Shown: piece by piece, positions 39,053 to 52,723 of the stretch
Layout: each line of letters starts with the position of its first letter
How positions within the stretch are numbered: the first letter of the stretch is position 1
Assembly: GCF_004766055.1 (NCBI RefSeq)
Contig: NZ_SPQR01000002.1
Location: 62,001 to 126,000 of the forward strand
Source of the DNA: Desulfosporosinus sp. Sb-LF
GTDB taxonomy: Bacteria > Bacillota > Desulfitobacteriia > Desulfitobacteriales > Desulfitobacteriaceae
DNA: 64,000 nucleotides
Direction: 5' to 3'
The notes under the pieces: model-generated
Seen by the model: only the letters and a program-made list of their open reading frames with translations
What the model was told of the DNA's origin: nothing
Databases searched by the model: none
Position numbers and translations under genes: made by a program

Positions 39053-40330
39053 CTAAGCGATCTGTATTCGTTCAGCACTAAGCATCTCTCTTGACGTTTC
39101 CTTTGTAACCACTTTACAAAAGACTTCAACCATTGCTGGATCTAATTGTGCTCCAGCAACTCTTTTAAGCTCTTTAATAGCTTCGTCATACGTATTCCCC
39201 TTGCGATAGCTACGGTCTGAAGTGATCGCATCATATGTGTCTGCTACGGCAATAATCCGTGAATCTAGTGGAATCTCTTCCCCTTTGATTCCATCTGGAT
39301 AGCCCTTCCCATCATAACGCTCGTGGTGATGGCGAACCACATTTCCGATATCGAACATAAATTTAATGCTTTTAATAATCTTTTGACCAATGATTGGATG
39401 ACTGCGAATTGATTCCCACTCTGAGTCCAGGAGTTTCCCCTCTTTGTTCAAGATTATCTCGCTAACCCCTATCTTTCCTACGTCATGCAAAACTGCTGCG
39501 TATTTGAGAAGTTCTATCTTGTCTTCACTCATTTCGATTGATTCGGCCATCATTACTGCCAGTTGCTCAACTCTAGAGGAGTGTCCGCTTGTGTACGTAT
39601 CTTTCGCTTCAAGTGCCTGAACCAAAGCTTGGACCGTGTTAAGGTAATTTTCTCTCATGTCCATGTAGAGTTGAAAAGAATGACGGGAAATTAATAATGG
39701 AATAAAGAGCAGGAAGAGCCCAACTGAACCGTAATTATTATAAATCAAAGCCATAAGCAAACCAAGAGGTGCCAAAGCAACAAAGTTTGGAATTGACCAG
39801 CGAATATTCCCCAGCCAAATGTGCCAAGGGGATTTGGTTTGTAATCCACCTAAGGCAATTGCCACCACTGTCATATTTGTTAGCATATAAGCCAATGCCG
39901 CCAAAAGATAAATAATAATGGCCTGAGGTTCGACGCTAAAACCTGTTCCTGTAGTCTTAAGTACCACGCCTGCTACGCCTAACGATACTACAAACTGTGA
40001 AGCATTAAACACCCTTTTGAAAAATGGTTCTCCCCGTACTTCCTTCCCAAAAACCAACATTCCGCCAATAAGGGCTACGGATGAAGAAACCCCTAAAGGG
40101 AAAAGAATGGCTACACTAAGGAACACAGCAAAGCCCACAGTCACAAATCCACCCCTGGGTAATGAAACTGGCAAAGATTCACTGGCAGCTGCAAGTAAGC
40201 CGAAAATCAGCAAATGAAAGATATCTTTTGAGGACCACTCCATTTGACATATTGCCCTAAGCCAAATTATTAAAGCTAATAGTGTCATTAAAATAAAAAG
40301 CCGGACAAAGGCCTTCGGCAGATTCTTCAT
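39053..40330 (-). CDS. Membrane HD-GYP domain protein (cyclic-di-GMP phosphodiesterase type)
   Basis: About 425 residues. The first ~220 form about seven membrane helices; the C-terminal HD-GYP domain shows AVLHDVGKIGVSEIIL, SHPIIGQKI and HHERYDGKGYPDG, with the metal ligands and the GYP motif intact, so c-di-GMP hydrolysis is plausible. I chose the ATG at 40330, 6 nt after GAGG; an ATG at 40342 and a TTG at 40399 are weaker. A 24-codon open frame with a better ribosome site lies immediately upstream (40371-40445). DUF5317 follows in the same operon. Confidence 0.9.
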   Translation of the reverse strand: MKNLPKAFVRLFILMTLLALIIWLRAICQMEWSSKDIFHLLIFGLLAAASESLPVSLPRGGFVTVGFAVFLSVAILFPLGVSSSVALIGGMLVFGKEVRGEPFFKRVFNASQFVVSLGVAGVVLKTTGTGFSVEPQAIIIYLLAALAYMLTNMTVVAIALGGLQTKSPWHIWLGNIRWSIPNFVALAPLGLLMALIYNNYGSVGLFLLFIPLLISRHSFQLYMDMRENYLNTVQALVQALEAKDTYTSGHSSRVEQLAVMMAESIEMSEDKIELLKYAAVLHDVGKIGVSEIILNKEGKLLDSEWESIRSHPIIGQKIIKSIKFMFDIGNVVRHHHERYDGKGYPDGIKGEEIPLDSRIIAVADTYDAITSDRSYRKGNTYDEAIKELKRVAGAQLDPAMVEVFCKVVTKETSREMLSAERIQIA

Positions 40331-40370
40331 TTCCCACCTCATATATGTTCTGGCCAACCAACTTTCACAA

Positions 40371-40445
40371 TCAGATTCTGTAGTTTGCGCCTCCGGCAAG
40401 AACGAGAGTAACGAGAACAGTGATAGCCTTAAATAATTTGCTCAT
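40371..40445 (-). CDS. Possible 24-residue hydrophobic peptide ahead of the HD-GYP gene
   Basis: A 24-codon open frame behind a near-perfect ribosome site (AAGGAGG, 7 nt before the ATG). The peptide opens MSKLFKAITVLVTLVLAGG and has the shape of a lysine-headed export signal or a tiny membrane peptide, ending after a short polar tail (ANYRI). The stop is 41 bp before the HD-GYP start. It may be a secreted signal, a leader peptide that couples translation, or a chance frame. The ribosome site is stronger than that of the HD-GYP gene itself. Confidence 0.5.
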   Translation of the reverse strand: MSKLFKAITVLVTLVLAGGANYRI

Positions 40446-44281: not shown

Positions 44282-45034
44282 ATGGCCAAAAGAGTTTATA
44301 AACTAAAACCAGACACGGAAGACCTTCGTGACAGAGTGTATAGAGCTACTGTCTATAAAACGAAAACGGTCCTGCCGAAGAGTGTAGACCTTCGGTCCGG
44401 CTGTTCACAAATTGTCGACCAGGGAGAGTTGGGAAGCTGTACGGCCAATGCCATTGCTAGCGGTCTGCGAGAATATTGGGAAAACAAGGTTGGATCGTTA
44501 ACCCTGCTAAGCCGCTTGTGGCTTTACTGGGAAGAAAGGTATCTAGAAGGAACCGTTAGTGAAGATGCAGGAGCTATTATTCGAGACGGCATGAAAATCC
44601 TTCAACAACTAGGCTGTGCACCAGAGGCAGATTGGCCTTACGACATTTCTAAATTTACGCAAACACCCCCTGTAAAAGCTACTACAGACGCAGCACAATT
44701 TAAAATTAATGAATACCATAGGGTGACAGACTTAACATCATTGAAGACTGCTTTGGCCGAAGGTTATCCAGTTGTGATCGGTATAAAGGTATTCGAAAGC
44801 TTTGAGTCCGACAAAGTAGCACAGAACGGGATTATCCCCCTTCCGAAACTCTGGGAGAAGTTCCTAGGAGGCCATGCGGTCTTAGCGGTAGGCTACAAAG
44901 ATGAAGTAAGGAAGGGTCAGGGCTATGTGATTTGCCGAAACTCCTGGGGCGAAAGCTGGGGAGATAAAGGCTATTTTTATCTCCCTTATGACTATTTTGC
45001 TAACTATGTAACGGATATGTGGACTGGAAAATAG
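44282..45034 (+). CDS. C1A (papain-like) cysteine peptidase without signal peptide
   Basis: A 250-residue protease. The catalytic cysteine is in DQGELGSCTANAIAS, the histidine in GGHAVLAVGYKD and the asparagine in CRNSWGESWGDKGYF. There is no signal peptide and no long propeptide: the mature domain begins within about 40 residues (YKLKPDTEDLRDRVY then LPKSVDLRSGC). It is therefore probably cytosolic and made nearly active. Similar short C1 peptidases occur in spore-formers and archaea. TGAGGGG precedes the ATG. Substrates are unknown. Confidence 0.92.
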   Translation: MAKRVYKLKPDTEDLRDRVYRATVYKTKTVLPKSVDLRSGCSQIVDQGELGSCTANAIASGLREYWENKVGSLTLLSRLWLYWEERYLEGTVSEDAGAIIRDGMKILQQLGCAPEADWPYDISKFTQTPPVKATTDAAQFKINEYHRVTDLTSLKTALAEGYPVVIGIKVFESFESDKVAQNGIIPLPKLWEKFLGGHAVLAVGYKDEVRKGQGYVICRNSWGESWGDKGYFYLPYDYFANYVTDMWTGK

Positions 45035-45145: not shown

Positions 45146-46495
45146 CTAAAGATCGATCAGTTTGATATTCTGATCTTGAATTTTGCCATTTTTATCGTTA
45201 AGTAAAGATATGAAGGCCGATACCAAAACAGGATCAAATTGAGTGCCCGCACATTTTTGCAATTCTTCTAATACTTGTTCAAACGTTCCTGCCGAACGAT
45301 AAGGACGACTGGAAGTAATCGCATCGACCGTATCGGCAATACTAACAAGACGAGCTAGAAATGGAATGTTTTCGCCACTTAAGCCGTCTGGGTAGCCTTT
45401 TCCATCGTAACGTTCATGATGATGTCTAATAATCGGCAAAATTTCTCTGGCAAAGTTTAACTTGGAACAAATGGTCTCACCCCGCTCTGGGTGAGACTTC
45501 ATGATTAACCATTCCTCTCTTGTTAAAGCGCTCGGCTTATTTAATATCGCATCCGGAATTCCAATCTTCCCAATATCGTGCAAAATTGCTGCGCGGTAAA
45601 TATTAACTTGATCAACCTTGCTTAAATCCAGGAACCTTGCAAGCTCTAGCGCATAATCTTTCACCCGTTCTGAATGTCCATGTGAATACGGATCTTTTGA
45701 TTCAAGAGCAAGTGTAAGTGTAAAAATAATGTTCTGGGATTCATCAAGTGCGGAGAGCGATTCATGGAGGTTATGATTAGTCGTAGTGAGCAGTTGATTG
45801 GCTTTTTCCAGCTCAGTTTTCTGATGTTCGATTGTTTTCCTGCTCAGAAAATCCTTGACTTTAGCATTATAAAGTATGATCGAAAGAAACCACGCAACCA
45901 CAGCAAGTATTGTACCATTAACGTAATGCCCTCTTAAAATTGCAGGATTTTTCTGGATAAATGTAATTCCTATTATAAATATTGAATAATTAGTCAAATA
46001 GACCCCCAGGCTAGTTAATGGTTTAAAATTATTCATTATGGCAATTGCAAATGCCCCAATAATAAATACTGTTATCTCACCATGAATACATTGATCGACA
46101 ATCGAGGTCAAGGCACAATCCAGAATAACGAAATATGCCAATAACAAAACAATTAATAGCTTACATCGTATTTGCTTAGGCTCTATATCTCTATATATGT
46201 GAAAAAAAGGTAATAATATCAGCATTATAAGAAAAAGTAGAAGGTGTGTATAAAAAAGATATTTATACCCTGGCAATAACGTCCACAGCCCTTTTTGCAT
46301 ATTAAGGCGGTCCGTAAAAAGAAGAACCATCGAAACCATAAATAATATAAAATTTAAATTTTTTGAACGATCGAAATTAGAATTTATAAGTTCTTGGTCA
46401 AATTTATTTTTTTCACTAATGGGAATATACCCAGACATACTTTTTGTTTGTACCAATGCTAATAGCTTGTTCTTCAAAGACATTTCATGCACCAT
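45146..46495 (-). CDS. HD-GYP protein with the same membrane sensor domain as the kinase at 51213-52589
   Basis: A 449-residue protein. Residues ~45-240 form about six membrane helices with GLWTLLPGYKYLFYTHLLL, IVDQCIHGEITVFIIGAFAIA and RGHYVNG. A short coiled coil follows, then the HD-GYP domain with AILHDIGKIGIPDAIL and HHERYDGKGYPDG, all metal ligands present. It should hydrolyse c-di-GMP on sensing a membrane or extracellular cue. The membrane part aligns by eye with that of the kinase on the other side of the NRPS gene. The ATG at 46495 has only a weak ribosome site; an in-frame ATG lies four codons in. Confidence 0.9.
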   Translation of the reverse strand: MVHEMSLKNKLLALVQTKSMSGYIPISEKNKFDQELINSNFDRSKNLNFILFMVSMVLLFTDRLNMQKGLWTLLPGYKYLFYTHLLLFLIMLILLPFFHIYRDIEPKQIRCKLLIVLLLAYFVILDCALTSIVDQCIHGEITVFIIGAFAIAIMNNFKPLTSLGVYLTNYSIFIIGITFIQKNPAILRGHYVNGTILAVVAWFLSIILYNAKVKDFLSRKTIEHQKTELEKANQLLTTTNHNLHESLSALDESQNIIFTLTLALESKDPYSHGHSERVKDYALELARFLDLSKVDQVNIYRAAILHDIGKIGIPDAILNKPSALTREEWLIMKSHPERGETICSKLNFAREILPIIRHHHERYDGKGYPDGLSGENIPFLARLVSIADTVDAITSSRPYRSAGTFEQVLEELQKCAGTQFDPVLVSAFISLLNDKNGKIQDQNIKLIDL

Positions 46496-46698
46496 AACTT
46501 TCGAATTTAGTTTGGCGGAAACCGACCCTGAGTATATAACTGATTAATCTACAAGATCTTAGCTTCAACCAAGAATATTCTTAAATTACATTTTACATGT
46601 CGAATTTACAAACTTCAATAGGTAAATAGCCCTATATTCAGCACTGCCACGATGTCACACGTTTTCTCCAAAACTTATAAGCGAAGGCAAAGCAAACT

Positions 46699-49600
46699 CT
46701 ATTTCATTCTGGCAGCAATATAATTTATTGACTCATTAATAAAGCCAACTTCATGCATATAACTTAGCACTTTGGAAAGATATTCAACATCTATCTCTGG
46801 CCAATCAAAACCTACCCGATTCAAATAGTTGATGGTAAAATTCGAATCTATAGTAATAGCATTACTTAAATTCAAGCTCTTATTAAGACTTAGATCGGAC
46901 ACAAGACCACTTAGTGTTTCCTTTCCTTCTTTTGTTACTGAGAGCTGTGCAATATAAGAATCAAATTCTATGTTAGATAGTGTTCGCACAGGAATATTTA
47001 GCGCCCTTAAAAAACTCAGGAGTTCGATTGCCTTAATCTTTTGATGATTAAATATATGGAACACCAAACCATTAGCCTGGTTAACCTTAATAATATTCAC
47101 AATACCTTTGGCGCAGTAGTCGACCGGCGTAAACTCGATACTTTGATCGAGGAAACTTTCAGGGATAACCCTTAACGCCACTAGAGACTTAATTCTACGA
47201 TAAAATGAATTTTGATCGATGTTGTGCTGAAACTTACCATCTTGGAAGCGTCCGGTTACGATACCAACCCTAAAGATAGATGCCCTTAACCCTCTAATTC
47301 CAGCTTTAAATACCTGGTTCTCCGCGGCAAATTTACTTCGTACATAGACGTTGGTTTTGTAATCCTGCCCAATAAAAAAGTCTTCTTCTCTAAAAACTGA
47401 ATTGACTTTGCTTTGGCCAACCACAAAATCTCCTGATATGCTGATCGTGGAAATGTGGTTCAACTTCTTGTCGAACCTCAAACAAAAATCGATTACTTCT
47501 CTAGTCCCTTGAACATTATTTTTCTCGAATTCACTGTAATTTCCATAGTGTTTGACCAACGCACTGCTGTGTATTACTGTCTGTACCTTTTGAGCAAGAT
47601 CATAATAGGAATTATCGTTTAACCCAAATTGCTCTAAGGAGATGTCCCCTTCAACCACGATAATTCTAGTTTTCAAAGGGACCGTAAGTGAGGGGAAATA
47701 GAAACTTATCAATTCGTCCAATCTTGCTTTAGCCTGATTTCCCCGTACCAGGCAATAGATTTCTTTATTTGTTTGAACGAGTAACTCCCAAAGTAGGTGT
47801 ATTCCCAAAAAGCCTGTCGCACCCGTCAAAAGCACATTACCTGTATCCATTGGTTTGATAATAATTTCTGTTGGCCTTATCCTGCTGGAGATATAAATCT
47901 CTTCTTCATTTCCTTTATCTTCTTGGACCCAACCAGAAATTTTAGAGGATAGTTGCCTAATGGTAGGACATTCATAGAAATCCTGGGCATTGAGTTTCCA
48001 TTCGTAAGATAAGGCACCAGACATGATTTCAAGGATTGTTAAAGAATCTCCCCCCAACGCGAAAAGGTTATCATCAATTCCAATTCGTTCTACTTCAAGA
48101 GCTTCTGCCCACAACATAGCTAGTTTCCATTCCAGATCATTTCCGGGAGCAACATACACATGGGTTAACTGACCCAAATCCATTTCACATAGTTCAGGTA
48201 AAGCGCGGCGATCGATCTTATCATTTGGAGTCAGCGGCATTGCCTTGAGCCAAGTAAACCAATTAGGAACCATGTAGTTTGGCAAAGTCTTTAACAGATG
48301 GCATCTCAAATCCTCATTGCTTGTTCCGCTTTCACCAGTTAAGTAAGCACATAGATGTTTCTTGCCCGCTTTGTCTTCTCTAACCGCTACAATTGCCTCT
48401 TTAACTGCGCTATGTGCTGATAGGCAGGCTTCAATTTCTTCAATCTCAATCCTGAAACCTCTGATCTTTACTTGATTATCATTTCGGCCCAAATATTCTA
48501 TTTCACCGTCGGGAAGCCATCGTCCCAAATCCCCTGTCCTGTACATTGTTTGGCCGGTAATAAATGGATTAGCCAAGAATCGCACTTTGGTCAATTCGGG
48601 GTTACCTAGATAGCCCAAGGAAACTCCATCCCCAGCGATATAGATTTCGCCTTCTGACTCGATAGATACAGGTGATAAATGCTCATCAAGGATATATACC
48701 TGTGTATTGGCGAAGGGTTTTCCGATCGTAATAATTTCGGAATTGGTCACATTTTTTATTGTTGACCACACCGTTGTTTCTGTTGGGCCATACAGATTAT
48801 AGATTTTGGCACTGGTAACATTTTTTAGACGGGATAACAATGTAGTTGGAAACTCCTCTCCCCCAATTAAAATGTGGGATAAACTATTTAGGCATTCCTG
48901 GCACTGTTGCTCATCCAATATTAGTTTCATTCTTGACGGTGTGGATTGTAAAACTTCAACTTGGTTTTTAGCAATAAGGTCAAAGAGATACTTGGGTATC
49001 GTTTGTTCTTTCTCATTAGCGATAATGACCTTCATTCCTTTGGTTAAGGGCAAAATAGTCTCTAAAAAGAAAATATCAAAGGAGATGGTTGTTATAGAAA
49101 CGATAGTTTTATTCTCAAGATAAATATTACAGGCGATACCGTTTATAAAATTGCACAAGGCACGGTGATGAACCATAACCCCTTTGGGTTTGCCAGTCGA
49201 CCCCGATGTGTAAATCACATAGGCTAAGTCATCAGCATCAACCTTATTATCTTTATCTAAATTAGCAGTTTCAGAAGTATAGGCAGTAGTATTACTCAAC
49301 GAAATATTAACAAGCTTACAATTTGCAGTTAATTTAATATCAGGATTGTCACTATCCGTAAGAATCAAGCGAGTATTACTCTGATGAAGCATATAGGCGA
49401 TTCTTTCACTAGGGTAGCCGGGGTCTATAGGCAAATAAGCTGCTCCGGCTTTAAGAATCGCTAGAATACCTATGATCATTTCCAAAGATCTATTGAGCAA
49501 CAACCCTACAATTGAATTCCGTGTCATCCCTTGGCTCTTGATATAACGGGCAAGTTGATTGGCCCTCTCGTTGAGTTCACGGTAAGTCAATCTTCTGTCA

Positions 49601-51021
49601 CCAAAAACTATAGCTATGTCATTGGGTGATTTCACAACCTGGTCTTCAAACAGTTCAGACACCGTCTTGGCTTCATACGGTAATTCAGTCTGATTAAACT
49701 CTATTAACAGCGTATTTAACTCGTCCTTAGAGAACATTTGTAGTTCTTTAAGCCTCCTACTTGGGTCTTGTAGCACATCTGTCAAGAGATTACACATGTT
49801 GCGGTGCATTTGATCGATGTCTTCCTCGCTGTAAACTTCAAACAAATAGTCATAATCCAATACTGGTAAGCCTGTGTCATCCCTGTCACTAATACATATC
49901 GACAGAGAGTTAGACTGAGCACCAGAGTAATTCCAGGTTCCCTCGTACTCAATCACTGAATCAAGCTTATTATTGTGATAATTCAACGCAACATCCACAA
50001 GCGTTCCAGAAAATTGATGCTTTTCACGGAAATCTTTTAATATACAGCTATGGGGATACCGTTGATTTCTCATAAATTTTTTTAACTCTCTGAATGACTC
50101 ATTAACAAAAGCAAGAAAATCAAGACTTGGCTCAACATATATTCTGGTAGGAATATTGTGCATAAACATCCCAACTGTGTTTTTTTCCATTTTGCCCGAC
50201 CGGTTTAAAATAGGGGTCTCAATCGCGATATCCTTCTTATTATTTTTCTTAGAAAGGTATAAGGCAAGAAGTGCGTAAAAGACACTAAACGCCGACACTT
50301 TATTCAACTCACAAAAACTGTGCAGTTTAGTACTCAGTGACTGGGATAGAGGATAACTTTTCCTTTTTCCAGCTAAGCTGATAAAACCTTTGTTATGTGT
50401 GACGGATATAAACTCAGGAACTGTCTCAAAAACATTCGACCAGAATTCCTTGTGCTTTTCAAAACGTTCGGAAGCCAGATAATCTAGTTCGCCATTAATA
50501 TGGTCAATAAAGGAAGGCTCCTTGATAGTTTCCGAATAAATACCGTTTATTAGTTTCCAATATTCTTTCAAAGTCTTTCTGATTACCAGAACGACTCCCC
50601 ATGCGTCAGTAGTCGTATGATGGAATTTGAAGAAACAGATATTTTTTTGCTCACCTAACTTAATCACAGCAAAGTAAAAAAGCTCGGAATCGATTAAGGC
50701 AAATGGGGTTTCTGCCATTTGCCTTTCCCATAGTCTATAGTCTAGTTCTCCATCTCCATAACTAAAATCCAGTATTTCATACGTCTTATGTACAAAGTCT
50801 GCAAAATATTGTTTTGGCGTCCCATCATGATCAACCAATCTAATGCGAAGAGCATCATTTTGTTCTATTACTAAATTAATGGCTTCATTCATTAAAGTAT
50901 AGTTGATTTCCTCGCGAATAATCGCAGTTGCCGATAAAACAGCTTGACTTGTACCTGGATATAAATTATCAGCAACCCAGATAGATTTCTGAGCGTTTGT
51001 TAAAGGATATAACTTGTTCAT
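46699..51021 (-). CDS. Single-module NRPS with terminal thioester reductase (C-A-PCP-R), glycine code
   Basis: 1440 residues, one complete module. C domain (~1-430) with FHHTTTDAW (HHxxxD kept, final G replaced by A). A domain (~450-960) with YVIYTSGSTGKPKGVM, NLYGPTETTVWST, YRTGDLGRWLPDGEIEYLGR and NDKIDRRALPE. PCP (~970-1045) with FALGGDSLTI, serine near 990. Reductase (~1055-1440) with LLTGATGFLG and YVRSK. The ten-residue pocket read by alignment to GrsA gives D-I-L-Q-L-G-L-V-W, which is the glycine code but for I to V. A starter-type C domain would load an acyl group, so the product may be an N-acyl-glycinal or N-acyl-ethanolamine. No phosphopantetheinyl transferase is in the window. AGGAGG precedes the ATG. 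Confidence 0.92.
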   Translation of the reverse strand: MNKLYPLTNAQKSIWVADNLYPGTSQAVLSATAIIREEINYTLMNEAINLVIEQNDALRIRLVDHDGTPKQYFADFVHKTYEILDFSYGDGELDYRLWERQMAETPFALIDSELFYFAVIKLGEQKNICFFKFHHTTTDAWGVVLVIRKTLKEYWKLINGIYSETIKEPSFIDHINGELDYLASERFEKHKEFWSNVFETVPEFISVTHNKGFISLAGKRKSYPLSQSLSTKLHSFCELNKVSAFSVFYALLALYLSKKNNKKDIAIETPILNRSGKMEKNTVGMFMHNIPTRIYVEPSLDFLAFVNESFRELKKFMRNQRYPHSCILKDFREKHQFSGTLVDVALNYHNNKLDSVIEYEGTWNYSGAQSNSLSICISDRDDTGLPVLDYDYLFEVYSEEDIDQMHRNMCNLLTDVLQDPSRRLKELQMFSKDELNTLLIEFNQTELPYEAKTVSELFEDQVVKSPNDIAIVFGDRRLTYRELNERANQLARYIKSQGMTRNSIVGLLLNRSLEMIIGILAILKAGAAYLPIDPGYPSERIAYMLHQSNTRLILTDSDNPDIKLTANCKLVNISLSNTTAYTSETANLDKDNKVDADDLAYVIYTSGSTGKPKGVMVHHRALCNFINGIACNIYLENKTIVSITTISFDIFFLETILPLTKGMKVIIANEKEQTIPKYLFDLIAKNQVEVLQSTPSRMKLILDEQQCQECLNSLSHILIGGEEFPTTLLSRLKNVTSAKIYNLYGPTETTVWSTIKNVTNSEIITIGKPFANTQVYILDEHLSPVSIESEGEIYIAGDGVSLGYLGNPELTKVRFLANPFITGQTMYRTGDLGRWLPDGEIEYLGRNDNQVKIRGFRIEIEEIEACLSAHSAVKEAIVAVREDKAGKKHLCAYLTGESGTSNEDLRCHLLKTLPNYMVPNWFTWLKAMPLTPNDKIDRRALPELCEMDLGQLTHVYVAPGNDLEWKLAMLWAEALEVERIGIDDNLFALGGDSLTILEIMSGALSYEWKLNAQDFYECPTIRQLSSKISGWVQEDKGNEEEIYISSRIRPTEIIIKPMDTGNVLLTGATGFLGIHLLWELLVQTNKEIYCLVRGNQAKARLDELISFYFPSLTVPLKTRIIVVEGDISLEQFGLNDNSYYDLAQKVQTVIHSSALVKHYGNYSEFEKNNVQGTREVIDFCLRFDKKLNHISTISISGDFVVGQSKVNSVFREEDFFIGQDYKTNVYVRSKFAAENQVFKAGIRGLRASIFRVGIVTGRFQDGKFQHNIDQNSFYRRIKSLVALRVIPESFLDQSIEFTPVDYCAKGIVNIIKVNQANGLVFHIFNHQKIKAIELLSFLRALNIPVRTLSNIEFDSYIAQLSVTKEGKETLSGLVSDLSLNKSLNLSNAITIDSNFTINYLNRVGFDWPEIDVEYLSKVLSYMHEVGFINESINYIAARMK

Positions 51022-51110
51022 GCTTATTACCTCCTATTGAAGTCAAACTCTTTTCCGGACCATCACAGTTGTCCTATTCGATGAGCCCTCTAAGCACTGT
51101 TGAAACAATT

Positions 51111-51134
51111 ATTATATCTATTCTGGAAAATAGA
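51111..51134 (-). promoter_or_regulatory. Candidate NRPS promoter with an operator-like palindrome
   Basis: On the minus strand TATAAT (51111-51116) is preceded directly by TCTATT-N6-AATAGA (51117-51134). The palindrome would lie in the spacer of the promoter. The -35 hexamer is poor, which would fit regulated expression. Confidence 0.4.
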
Positions 51135-51212
51135 ACCACTTTATTTGTTCCCTATAAAAGGCGAAAGATATAATCAAGTATTACGTAAATATGTAGAGTC
51201 CGTTGTTTTTAC

Positions 51213-52589
51213 TCAAGACAATTCAAAATATACATTAAACGTAGTGCCAATAGGACTAGTTTCAACATTAATCCTTCCGTTATGCCGCGAAACTATACCA
51301 TAACACACGGCTAATCCTAAACCCGTACCTTTTTCTTTCGTTGTAAAGAATGGTGTCCCTAACTTTTCAAGCACAAATTGTTCAATTCCCTTACCTTCAT
51401 CCGATACGGCTAAGGCTACTTCACTGTTAGTAGAAAACGTTCTTATTCTCAATTGCCCACCACCAGACATAGCTTCAAGTCCATTACGAACAAGGTTTAA
51501 TAATAGTTGGCGTATTTCCTGTATATTGAGTTGTAAATTTGGTACATTATTAAGCTCTACAGTCAGTAGATTATCGTTGGTTTGTGCGTCCGCTTGAACG
51601 AGTGGTAAAGTGGAAGTGACTATATCATTGATATTGTGCGATTCAAAAATAGTCGACTTTGTTCTACTGATGGAAAGAAACTCTGAAAGAATAGAATTCG
51701 CACGATCCAGTTCTTCTATCATGAGATCAAAATGCTCTCTATCCCTTGAATTTTGTTTGTGCCTAAGCAATTGCAAAAAACCTTTCACTGTTGTCATCGG
51801 ATTTCGGACTTCATGGCTAATACTAGCTGCCATTTCACCGATTAAGTTTAATCTATCAAGCTTCGCCATCTCTATTTCAGCTCGCTTGCGTTCCAAGATT
51901 TCCTGTGTAAGTGAGTCATTAGCAGTTTGTAATTCCTTCGTCCGCTCTGTAACTAAATCCTCTAGATGACACTTATGCAGCATATCCTGATGCTTGAGTT
52001 TATGGAGTACATTGGATAGAAAATATGATATTACAACTACTAAAGATGCGTTTACAAAGTGCCCATGGCGTATCACCAGATCCTTTTGACTAATAGTTAG
52101 TAAAATCATAAAAGCGACAAAGGATAATCCATATAAAAGTGCTGTAATTCTCGGTTTATAACTATACATTACAGCTATCATAAAGCTCCCTATAACATAA
52201 ACGGTGATTTGTCCATGAATCTTTTGATCTATCCAACCAGATGTTACAGCTGTAAGAGTTAGTATAAAAAGGGAAAAAACAATCACGTGAAATTTATGAT
52301 ATCGCGTAATGCCTTTTGCGGTGGGGACAATAATTCTGTAGGAAACCAGACTATAAAAGAGTGTAACAAAGCCTAGAATCACATGAGAATAAAACAAATA
52401 CTTATAACCATCTGAAATAATCCAGAGCCCTTCGACCTTGTTGATATGGTCAACAAAGAGAAGGATGATACTTGCCAAAAACAAAATGACCGAAAATTTT
52501 CTAGTACGGTTATAATTTTCGTAAGTTAGAATCTGCTCAATTGCGTATTCGTAGTTCTCTGTTATATGTTGTGATTGAAAGAATCCCAT
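51213..52589 (-). CDS. Orphan sensor histidine kinase with shared membrane sensor domain, sporulation-kinase-like
   Basis: A 458-residue kinase. Residues ~30-215 form about six helices with GLWIISDGYKYLFYSHVIL, WIDQKIHGQITVYVIGSFMIA and RHGHFVNA, matching the HD-GYP protein at 45146-46495. A coiled coil leads to the HisKA segment SHEVRNPMTTVKGFLQLL (histidine near residue 260) and an HATPase domain with NLVRNGLEAM, DEGKGI and GTGLGLAVCYGI. The HisKA form resembles KinA/KinB/KinE sporulation kinases. No response regulator is adjacent, so Spo0A or Spo0F is a plausible partner (inferred). It precedes the NRPS gene by about 190 bp. Confidence 0.92.
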   Translation of the reverse strand: MGFFQSQHITENYEYAIEQILTYENYNRTRKFSVILFLASIILLFVDHINKVEGLWIISDGYKYLFYSHVILGFVTLFYSLVSYRIIVPTAKGITRYHKFHVIVFSLFILTLTAVTSGWIDQKIHGQITVYVIGSFMIAVMYSYKPRITALLYGLSFVAFMILLTISQKDLVIRHGHFVNASLVVVISYFLSNVLHKLKHQDMLHKCHLEDLVTERTKELQTANDSLTQEILERKRAEIEMAKLDRLNLIGEMAASISHEVRNPMTTVKGFLQLLRHKQNSRDREHFDLMIEELDRANSILSEFLSISRTKSTIFESHNINDIVTSTLPLVQADAQTNDNLLTVELNNVPNLQLNIQEIRQLLLNLVRNGLEAMSGGGQLRIRTFSTNSEVALAVSDEGKGIEQFVLEKLGTPFFTTKEKGTGLGLAVCYGIVSRHNGRINVETSPIGTTFNVYFELS

Positions 52590-52624: not shown

Positions 52625-52723
52625 TGTATTATCTGTTAATTCAGTTAAAAACATCTCTTATCTGACAATATTCCACAGAAGCTGTGATTTTCCTTCTTTA
52701 ACCTAATTGAATACATAATAAAA

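Follow-up and report, generated by a model that had tools for sequence, protein, structure and literature searches.

Why would a gene for a non-ribosomal peptide synthetase (NRPS) lie between two genes for signalling proteins that carry the same membrane domain? The question is raised by a locus of Desulfosporosinus sp. Sb-LF, found in a stretch of 64,000 nt (assembly GCF_004766055.1, contig NZ_SPQR01000002.1, positions 62,001 to 126,000) that is referred to here as the window. A sensor histidine kinase (HK), a one-module NRPS and an HD-GYP phosphodiesterase are encoded there in that order on the minus strand, and both the HK and the HD-GYP protein begin with a six-transmembrane (6TM) domain. 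Comparison with related loci indicates that NRPSs of this type very probably form a recurrent functional unit with a histidine kinase and an HD-GYP protein. The sequences further suggest, with a probability of roughly 0.55, that the locus is a signalling module made of one synthase and two receptors, in which the NRPS product would be the ligand of the 6TM domains. This reading is the most economical, as there is no simpler use for a single domain that precedes two outputs next to one small-molecule synthase. Coordinates are positions in the window; L plus a number denotes a fetched locus and G plus a number a genome, G000 being that of the window.

Locus organisation and shared membrane domain

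The initial annotation had placed the NRPS gene between the other two on one strand, and the coordinates of the window open reading frames (ORFs) are exact in this respect. According to them, 191 bp separate the HK from the NRPS and 203 bp the NRPS from the HD-GYP gene. The parts of the locus are as follows.

51213..52589, minus strand: sensor HK, 458 aa, 6TM domain followed by HisKA and HATPase_c (Pfam), H-box and G2 box present
51981..52538, minus strand: 6TM sensor domain of the HK, residues 18-203 (alignment of the two N-termini and AlphaFold2 model)
46699..51021, minus strand: one-module NRPS, 1440 aa, condensation-adenylation-carrier-reductase (C-A-T-R), A-domain code DILQLGLVWK of glycine type (Pfam Condensation, AMP-binding, PP-binding, NAD_binding_4)
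49708..51015, minus strand: NRPS Condensation domain, residues 3-438, motif HHTTTDAW (Pfam, motif reading)
48199..49650, minus strand: NRPS adenylation domain, residues 458-941 (Pfam, NCBIfam, motif reading)
47947..48126, minus strand: NRPS carrier (T) domain, residues 966-1025, GGDSL (Pfam, motif reading)
46738..47838, minus strand: NRPS thioester reductase (R) domain, residues 1062-1428, GATGFLG and YxxxK intact (TIGR01746 above cut-off, PF07993)
45146..46495, minus strand: 6TM-HD-GYP phosphodiesterase, 449 aa, HDIGK and HHERYDGKGYP intact (Pfam HD_5/HD, motif reading); signatures HDxGK at residue 306 and HHE..DGxGYP at residue 358
45851..46399, minus strand: 6TM sensor domain of the HD-GYP protein, residues 33-215 (alignment and AlphaFold2 model)
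45227..45709, minus strand: HD-GYP catalytic domain, residues 263-423 (PF13487, 1.3e-40)

That the HK and the HD-GYP protein have the same N-terminal multi-helix domain, marked by shared sequence words, had been noticed in the initial annotation and is upheld by the alignment. The two domains are 37% identical (61% positives) over 215 aa (BLASTP, E 1e-39), and the global alignment of the N-termini scores 344, whereas 500 shuffles averaged 19.6 and did not exceed 54; all the shared words fall in columns identical between the two proteins. These are the only copies of the domain in the window genome (domain profile, E<=0.001). No Pfam family reached its cut-off on the window domains or on their relatives, the latter judged from 25 of the 33 families matched by 42 members (E<=1). 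Among these 25, the commonest weak match was DUF4118 (6/42 members, best E 6e-4; 17.8 bits for the window HK, cut-off 28.4), and no MASE family was found. A search of PDB sequences with the domain profile gave no match. Judged by its distant relatives, the domain appears to be a widespread type of sensor, the close form of which has no Pfam match in this analysis; such relatives are seen on GGDEF proteins of Spirochaetales, Bacteroidetes and genomes of the window's phylum (L144, L145, L147, L151, L153, L155-L176). About 5 kb from the locus, the window encodes another membrane protein of the HD-GYP type (39053-40399, minus strand); it has a MASE9 domain, and its N-terminus is unmatched by the 6TM profile.

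AlphaFold2 models of the HK domain (pLDDT 95.8, pTM 0.90) and the HD-GYP domain (pLDDT 93.6, pTM 0.88) both consist of six long helices in the same layout. They were compared with known structures by VIA, a second look at Foldseek's own candidates, and only this second look singled out cyclase and ImcA domains. The top-ranked rows were the adenylyl cyclase (AC) AC9 (Z 13.9, 167 aa, rmsd 3.1) and ImcA (Z 12.5, 176 aa, rmsd 3.3) for the HK model, and AC8 (Z 12.8, 169 aa) and ImcA (Z 12.7, 175 aa) for the HD-GYP model, on a scale where helical bundles can reach about 13 by chance; the best unrelated rows had Z 9.3 and 8.5. Two separately predicted models that point to the same families count for more than one match. 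When the order of the helices is used to set an N-in topology by hand, the columns of the predicted outer half are more conserved (0.62 versus 0.55, p 0.01), and this half contains most of the polar or aromatic positions with the highest conservation (D30, N33, W39, Y45, H52, D104, Q105, T112, Q151, 161 and N163).

Recurrence of the linkage

Among 73 genomes of the order, the 6TM profile matched 40 and the NRPS 34 (E<=1e-120). Linkage was counted over 40 loci with a C-A-T-R NRPS or a piece of one (39 NRPS genes, L182 and L183 being taken as one gene over two contigs) and compared with 40 arbitrary 19.9-kb regions at round coordinates in ten of the same genomes. Within 6 kb of the NRPS there was a 6TM gene in 27/40 loci, an HK in 26/40, an HD-GYP in 29/40 and any of these in 36/40. 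The control regions contained a 6TM gene in 0/40, an HK in 3/40 and an HD-GYP in 1/40 (Fisher p 1.6e-11, 9e-8 and 2e-11, respectively, values that are optimistic as the loci share kinship). The four loci without a sensor neighbour are L078, L085, L180 (a 5.7-kb contig) and L182, the other contig of which, L183, does have a 6TM-HD-GYP. The 40 loci include two HD-GYPs without a 6TM domain (a 167-aa piece in L066 and a 111-aa remnant in L080), short contigs (L023, L086, L180), a longer NRPS of 2957 aa (L087), a split one (L088) and one locus entered through a domain match instead of an NRPS match (L187). Multi-module matches in G003 and G031, which are not C-A-T-R, and the C257 fragment of G017 stand outside the count. 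In L080 (7777-12098), the NRPS of G007 is broken by a stop codon next to the HD-GYP remnant, apparently a decaying copy of the module.

Recurrence across genera had been set beforehand as the test of the linkage, and this is what was found: a 6TM HK and/or HD-GYP adjoins the C-A-T-R NRPS, or a contig-cut piece of it, in 10 genera of two families, in varying gene order. Named carriers of the domain belong mostly to Desulfosporosinus, and the locus is also present in Paradesulfitobacterium and a Gracilibacter metagenome-assembled genome. The order yielded 83 domain matches, of which the 58 strongest (E below 1e-42) were all taken with their flanks and 24 of the 25 weaker ones were not; three weaker matches, read as short loci, are GGDEF proteins. 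Among the 58, every 6TM-HD-GYP is NRPS-linked (19/19), and the 6TM-HKs divide into 17 linked and 19 solo ones, with two further cut genes (L189, L196). A truncated 6TM gene (L086) groups with the 6TM-HD-GYPs in a tree from which L189, a 6TM-HK cut at a contig end, was left out. The solo kinases (L090, L091, L093, L095-L103, L188, L190-L195; L188, L193 and L194 on short contigs) are candidate receptor solos.

The 6TM-linked synthetases, termed class I, lie on one side of a 100/99 branch of the NRPS tree (27 rows, of which 24 have a 6TM neighbour and the other three are L078, L080 and L182). Many ARRANGEMENTS, one NRPS group: class I holds at least four gene arrangements. The in-line order HK-NRPS-HD-GYP is found in the window and G014, HK-NRPS in G001, G002, G020, G040 and G042, and NRPS-HD-GYP in G052, G017, G068, G071, G036, G070, G006 and G066, as well as across contigs in G061. 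A longer HK (about 590 aa) faces the HD-GYP, with the NRPS divergent, in G003, G007, G011, G016, G018, G019 and G022, and on a short contig in G051. A kinase of 604-646 aa is followed by the NRPS in G030, where it reads as having a C-terminal receiver, and in G032; in G034, the contig end cuts the 6TM gene. The seven divergent loci on longer contigs have a wider synteny in common, and the same neighbourhood is found with the kinase alone in L099 (G002). Leaving aside the NRPS and the group of HKs and HD-GYPs, the most widespread protein cluster occurs in 12/42 clustered loci; it consists of mixed ABC ATPases, and two of its loci are without an NRPS.

Predicted product of the synthetase

The carrier, reductase and nucleotide-binding motifs of the C-A-T-R protein are intact. 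With positions set by motif anchors, its A-domain code equals the published Gly code at 8/10 positions; that code, DILQLGMIWK, comes from PMC12283262, and the relatives in L086, L023 and L141 carry it exactly. DIMQFGMVWK is found in ten class I relatives, and a few have variants of the DISQL/DIAQL kind. As there is no upstream module, the acyl group used by the C domain is presumably free or bound to a carrier. An AMP-ligase adjoins the NRPS in 6 loci, together with an acyl carrier of 80-83 aa in 4: L078, L080 and L081 have the ligase and an 83-aa carrier (DDLGADSLD) directly beside the NRPS, L182 the ligase and an 80-aa carrier, and L184 and L185 the ligase. The product predicted from these features is an N-acyl-glycinal, or an N-acylethanolamine after a second reduction. 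Next to the HD-GYP gene, on the opposite strand, lies a gene for a papain-family cysteine protease (Peptidase_C1, 44282-45034, plus strand); an aldehyde product could inhibit papain-type proteases such as this one.

Other sensors beside related synthetases

In eight loci of the order, termed class II (L082, L083, L084, L087, L088, L177, L178 and L179), the NRPS lies near an HK and an HD-GYP that lack the 6TM domain. The annotated examples have HAMP (L082) or HisKA_7TM (L084, L087) in the kinase and a receiver-DUF3369-HD-GYP architecture in the phosphodiesterase (L082, L084). L084 (7881-12230) is a second NRPS of G030, which thus holds both classes, and stands by a 7TM kinase and a receiver-DUF3369-HD-GYP; its A-domain code is presumably of serine type. 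A phosphopantetheinyl transferase gene adjoins the NRPS in L082 and L085, and the same protein cluster is found near the NRPS in L083, L087 and L088.

The search was extended to 398 sampled genomes of the phylum, 25 of which have the NRPS at E<=1e-140, 20 of them beyond the order; from 13/20 of these, 14 regions were examined, one-module matches being preferred. Half of the regions (7/14; L222, L223, L226-L230) have the NRPS with HK and HD-GYP neighbours. The HK is of the HisKA_7TM type in all six annotated loci, and the HD-GYP of L226 has a receiver, as do those of L082 and L084. L224 combines an R-type NRPS with an HK only, and the other six regions have neither partner directly adjacent, with the HK of L234 a few genes off. 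The conservation of NRPS, HK and HD-GYP while the sensor changes argues that the NRPS product, cyclic di-GMP (c-di-GMP) turnover and kinase signalling belong together. The ends of these synthetases vary: by eye, those of L228 and L229 read as thioesterases, and the NRPS of L230 has more than one module. The NRPSs of L226 (7637-11977) and L227 (6805-11139) have a terminal domain of about 400 aa, which by eye reads like an acyl-ACP (acyl carrier protein) reductase, a possible second route to aldehyde release; this domain of the L227 NRPS has no Pfam name.

Outputs and promoters

The kinase core of the window HK matches ZraS (3.2e-36) and sporulation kinase B (KinB, 3d36; 7.5e-36) in the PDB, and the NCBIfam models KinD and AtoS match it below their cut-offs. 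No response regulator gene was recognised beside it in the family annotation of its neighbours. The window genome has four Spo0A_C matches and 27 GGDEF matches, 26 of them above cut-off. Two elements were marked in the locus.

52670..52694, minus strand: sigma-H-like promoter AGGAAAATCACAGCTTCTGTGGAAT, its start 105 bp upstream of the HK gene (consensus match; the pattern recurs upstream of other 6TM-HKs)
46598..46604, plus strand: TGTCGAA (0A-box core) in the gap that separates NRPS and HD-GYP, on the opposite strand and about 105 bp upstream of where the HD-GYP gene starts (word match, weak alone)

The sigma-H-like element, defined by the consensus AGGAWW, 15-16 bases and GAAT, was searched within 300 bp upstream. 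It precedes 8/17 linked and 12/19 solo 6TM-HKs and 6/20 6TM-HD-GYPs, as compared with 1/25 class I NRPSs, 3/14 class II NRPSs and 19/681 control genes; these promoter counts take related and shared divergent promoters more than once. TGTCGAA, the core of the 0A box according to PMC3485338, occurs within the same distance of 13/20 6TM-HD-GYPs (window included), 9/25 class I NRPSs and 2/18 other linked 6TM genes; the comparison sets gave 28/681 control genes, 1/19 solo HKs and 0/14 class II NRPSs. In several HD-GYP promoters this word overlaps the −10 element of the sigma-H-like site, so the 0A-box reading is confounded and which of the two motifs is intended is not decidable. Of the 13 HD-GYP boxes, eight belong to a single clade; a count by clade, limited to 150 bp, gives 6/13 for TGTCGAA and 7 for two other words, so that the enrichment is modest. 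Neither a sigma-70 promoter scan (22 sites versus 26.7 in shuffles) nor terminator-like sites (4 versus 4.2) exceeded chance.

Comparison with known systems

The Rpf/DSF (diffusible signal factor) system, RpfF-RpfC-RpfG, has a signal synthase, a membrane histidine kinase and an HD-GYP phosphodiesterase at one locus. The window locus has the same three kinds of component and in its logic would be a Gram-positive counterpart made from unrelated parts. Its synthase, however, is an NRPS (Condensation, AMP-binding, PP-binding, reductase) with no hydratase family, and not of the crotonase/enoyl-CoA hydratase type of RpfF, and the class I HD-GYP bears a membrane sensor of its own and lacks a receiver (no Response_reg in the window protein). 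The receiver-bearing HD-GYPs of three annotated class II loci (L082, L084, L226) are nearer to RpfG. On the features tested, the window system is not a member of Rpf/DSF.

Other likenesses concern the receptor. In CqsA/CqsS, likened here by description, the receptor of a lipid-like autoinducer is a histidine kinase with a 6TM domain; in PMC4821796 this CqsS domain, placed on the catalytic domain of a class III cyclase, is reported to respond to CAI-1. The window synthase is unrelated to CqsA, and a second receptor with an HD-GYP output is present. The 6TM domains of adenylyl cyclases have a similar predicted fold (best Z 12.8-13.9 to AC8/AC9, 8.2 to Rv1625c); according to PMC11606603 and PMC12505454, fatty acids and anandamide act on the membrane domains of mammalian ACs, and C18:1 acids on that of Rv1625c. 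Contrary to this group, with which identity is about 10%, the window proteins have other outputs and the synthase of the presumed ligand next door. MASE-type sensors of diguanylate cyclases are likewise N-terminal multi-helix membrane domains of c-di-GMP proteins, and distant 6TM relatives sit on GGDEF, but no MASE family appeared in the Pfam comparison described above. The window HK may be likened to the sporulation kinases by the KinB match of its core, its sigma-H-like promoter and the lack of a recognised adjacent response regulator; its membrane sensor is different, however, and ZraS scores as well. Finally, valdiazen/ham and Pvf are cases in which an NRPS product serves as a signal, although the abstract openings of these reports mention no HK/HD-GYP receptor pair, and the hosts are different.

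Alternative explanations

Several observations weigh against the proposed module, in which the NRPS product would be the ligand of the 6TM domains. The strongest is the existence of solo 6TM-HKs in genomes without the NRPS (G008, G009, G015, G043 and G050): in these genomes, as in the 67%-complete G013, the 6TM domain is present and the NRPS has no match at E<=1e-120, and the 19 solo 6TM-HKs have no NRPS neighbour in the stretch fetched. Such kinases may be eavesdroppers or sense something else. Outside the order, relatives of the domain are mostly found on GGDEF proteins or diguanylate cyclases. Foldseek by itself found no significant match in the PDB for the HK 6TM model (nothing better than E 1.5), and the Z scores obtained by VIA lie near what helical bundles may reach by chance. 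There is neither a ligase nor an acyl carrier beside the window NRPS. Against the predicted product stands the observation that, although the window genome has an NRPS, the only phosphopantetheinyl transferase match in it (ACPS family, G000:C5:60224-60469) lies in an ORF of 123 aa, the size of AcpS; one ACPS match, in an ORF of 123-154 aa, is likewise found in 8/18 other class I genomes scanned (G001, G002, G006, G011, G020, G042, G052, G071). By the criterion used, only L222 and L223 of the 7 outside loci have an R domain; the five without a recognisable one indicate that the product type is not constant. TGTCGAA occurs in the window at chance level (9 words versus 7.5 expected), and the 300 bp upstream of the window NRPS contain no strict sigma-H-like site and no 0A box. 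The Fisher values come from non-independent tests, the linked loci being related by descent. The initial annotation, which took the NRPS for a signal maker and the shared domain for its sensor, therefore stands in part: linkage and a lipid-amide product gained support, the latter from the A-domain code and the ligase and carrier neighbours of some relatives, and the sensing of that product stays a proposal, against which the GGDEF relatives and the solo HKs speak.

It could be, although this is rather unlikely, that the 6TM domains sense another cue (a free fatty acid, membrane state or redox) and that the HK and the HD-GYP only regulate the NRPS, the product of which would do another job, e.g. 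protease inhibition by the aldehyde or a role as membrane lipid. The solo kinases and the GGDEF relatives fit this explanation, as do the L099 locus, where the kinase alone is kept in a neighbourhood that elsewhere has HK, HD-GYP and NRPS, and the response of the Rv1625c domain to ordinary fatty acids. A c-di-GMP-degrading enzyme would, however, be unusual as a cluster-specific regulator, yet the HD-GYP is kept across sensor change and rearrangement, and no further protein cluster accompanies the NRPS and its HK/HD-GYP partners in more than 12/42 loci.

Improbable, in turn, is an arrangement in which the sensors protect the cell from the reactive aldehyde that it makes or from membrane damage due to this compound, that is, self-sensing for protection and not for communication. 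The predicted release of an aldehyde fits such a role, as does the apparently different terminal domain of two class II NRPSs (resembling acyl-ACP reductases by eye, with no family match for L227); on the other hand, the sigma-H-like and 0A-box-like promoters of many class I loci point to developmental timing, and two class II NRPSs with an apparent thioesterase end (by eye) would yield no aldehyde. Vertical inheritance of a neighbourhood without any functional tie between NRPS and sensors is very improbable, for although all class I cases come from one order and seven share a long synteny, arrangement, strand and kinase type vary between subclades of one NRPS group, and in class II and beyond the order another HK/HD-GYP pair is found in a comparable position.

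A possible circuit and its meaning

If the NRPS product is the ligand of the two receptors, the circuit might run as follows. The C domain would couple an acyl group to glycine held on the A and T domains, and the R domain would free an N-acyl-glycinal, or an N-acylethanolamine if it reduces twice, in either case a small membrane-soluble lipid amide. As the product builds up, it would be read within the membrane by the 6TM domains, the conserved polar residues of which lie mostly on the predicted outer half. Binding would switch, in parallel, a KinB-like kinase that probably feeds Spo0A and a c-di-GMP phosphodiesterase. The sigma-H-like and 0A-box-like promoters would assign these genes to the transition-to-sporulation programme and could also make the circuit a closed loop.

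The sigma-H-like promoters, the KinB-like core and a genome that encodes Spo0A suggest an Rpf-like circuit with a link to sporulation, probably an undescribed form of bacterial communication in spore-forming sulfate reducers and their relatives. No paper describing a system of NRPS, HK and HD-GYP was found among the titles and abstract openings of the open-licence literature, which is weak evidence of absence. A bolder version, tentative and doubtful as a whole, is that spore-forming anaerobes make endocannabinoid-like N-acylethanolamines (or N-acyl-glycinals) by a dedicated NRPS and read them directly in the membrane through a 6TM receptor with the fold of the membrane domains of mammalian ACs, which drives a sporulation kinase and a c-di-GMP phosphodiesterase; the system would then belong to a broad lipid-amide quorum family of Bacillota in which the receptor was exchanged at least once.

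The ligand question is directly testable because the synthase neighbours two receptors with easily assayed outputs. If the proposal is true, a group of one-module NRPSs without known product would acquire a function, and the membrane fold of the adenylyl cyclase type, the ligands of which were long unknown, would gain a natural ligand-receptor pair. Gram-positive anaerobes would have an Rpf-like circuit of their own, one that ties a lipid amide to c-di-GMP and sporulation.

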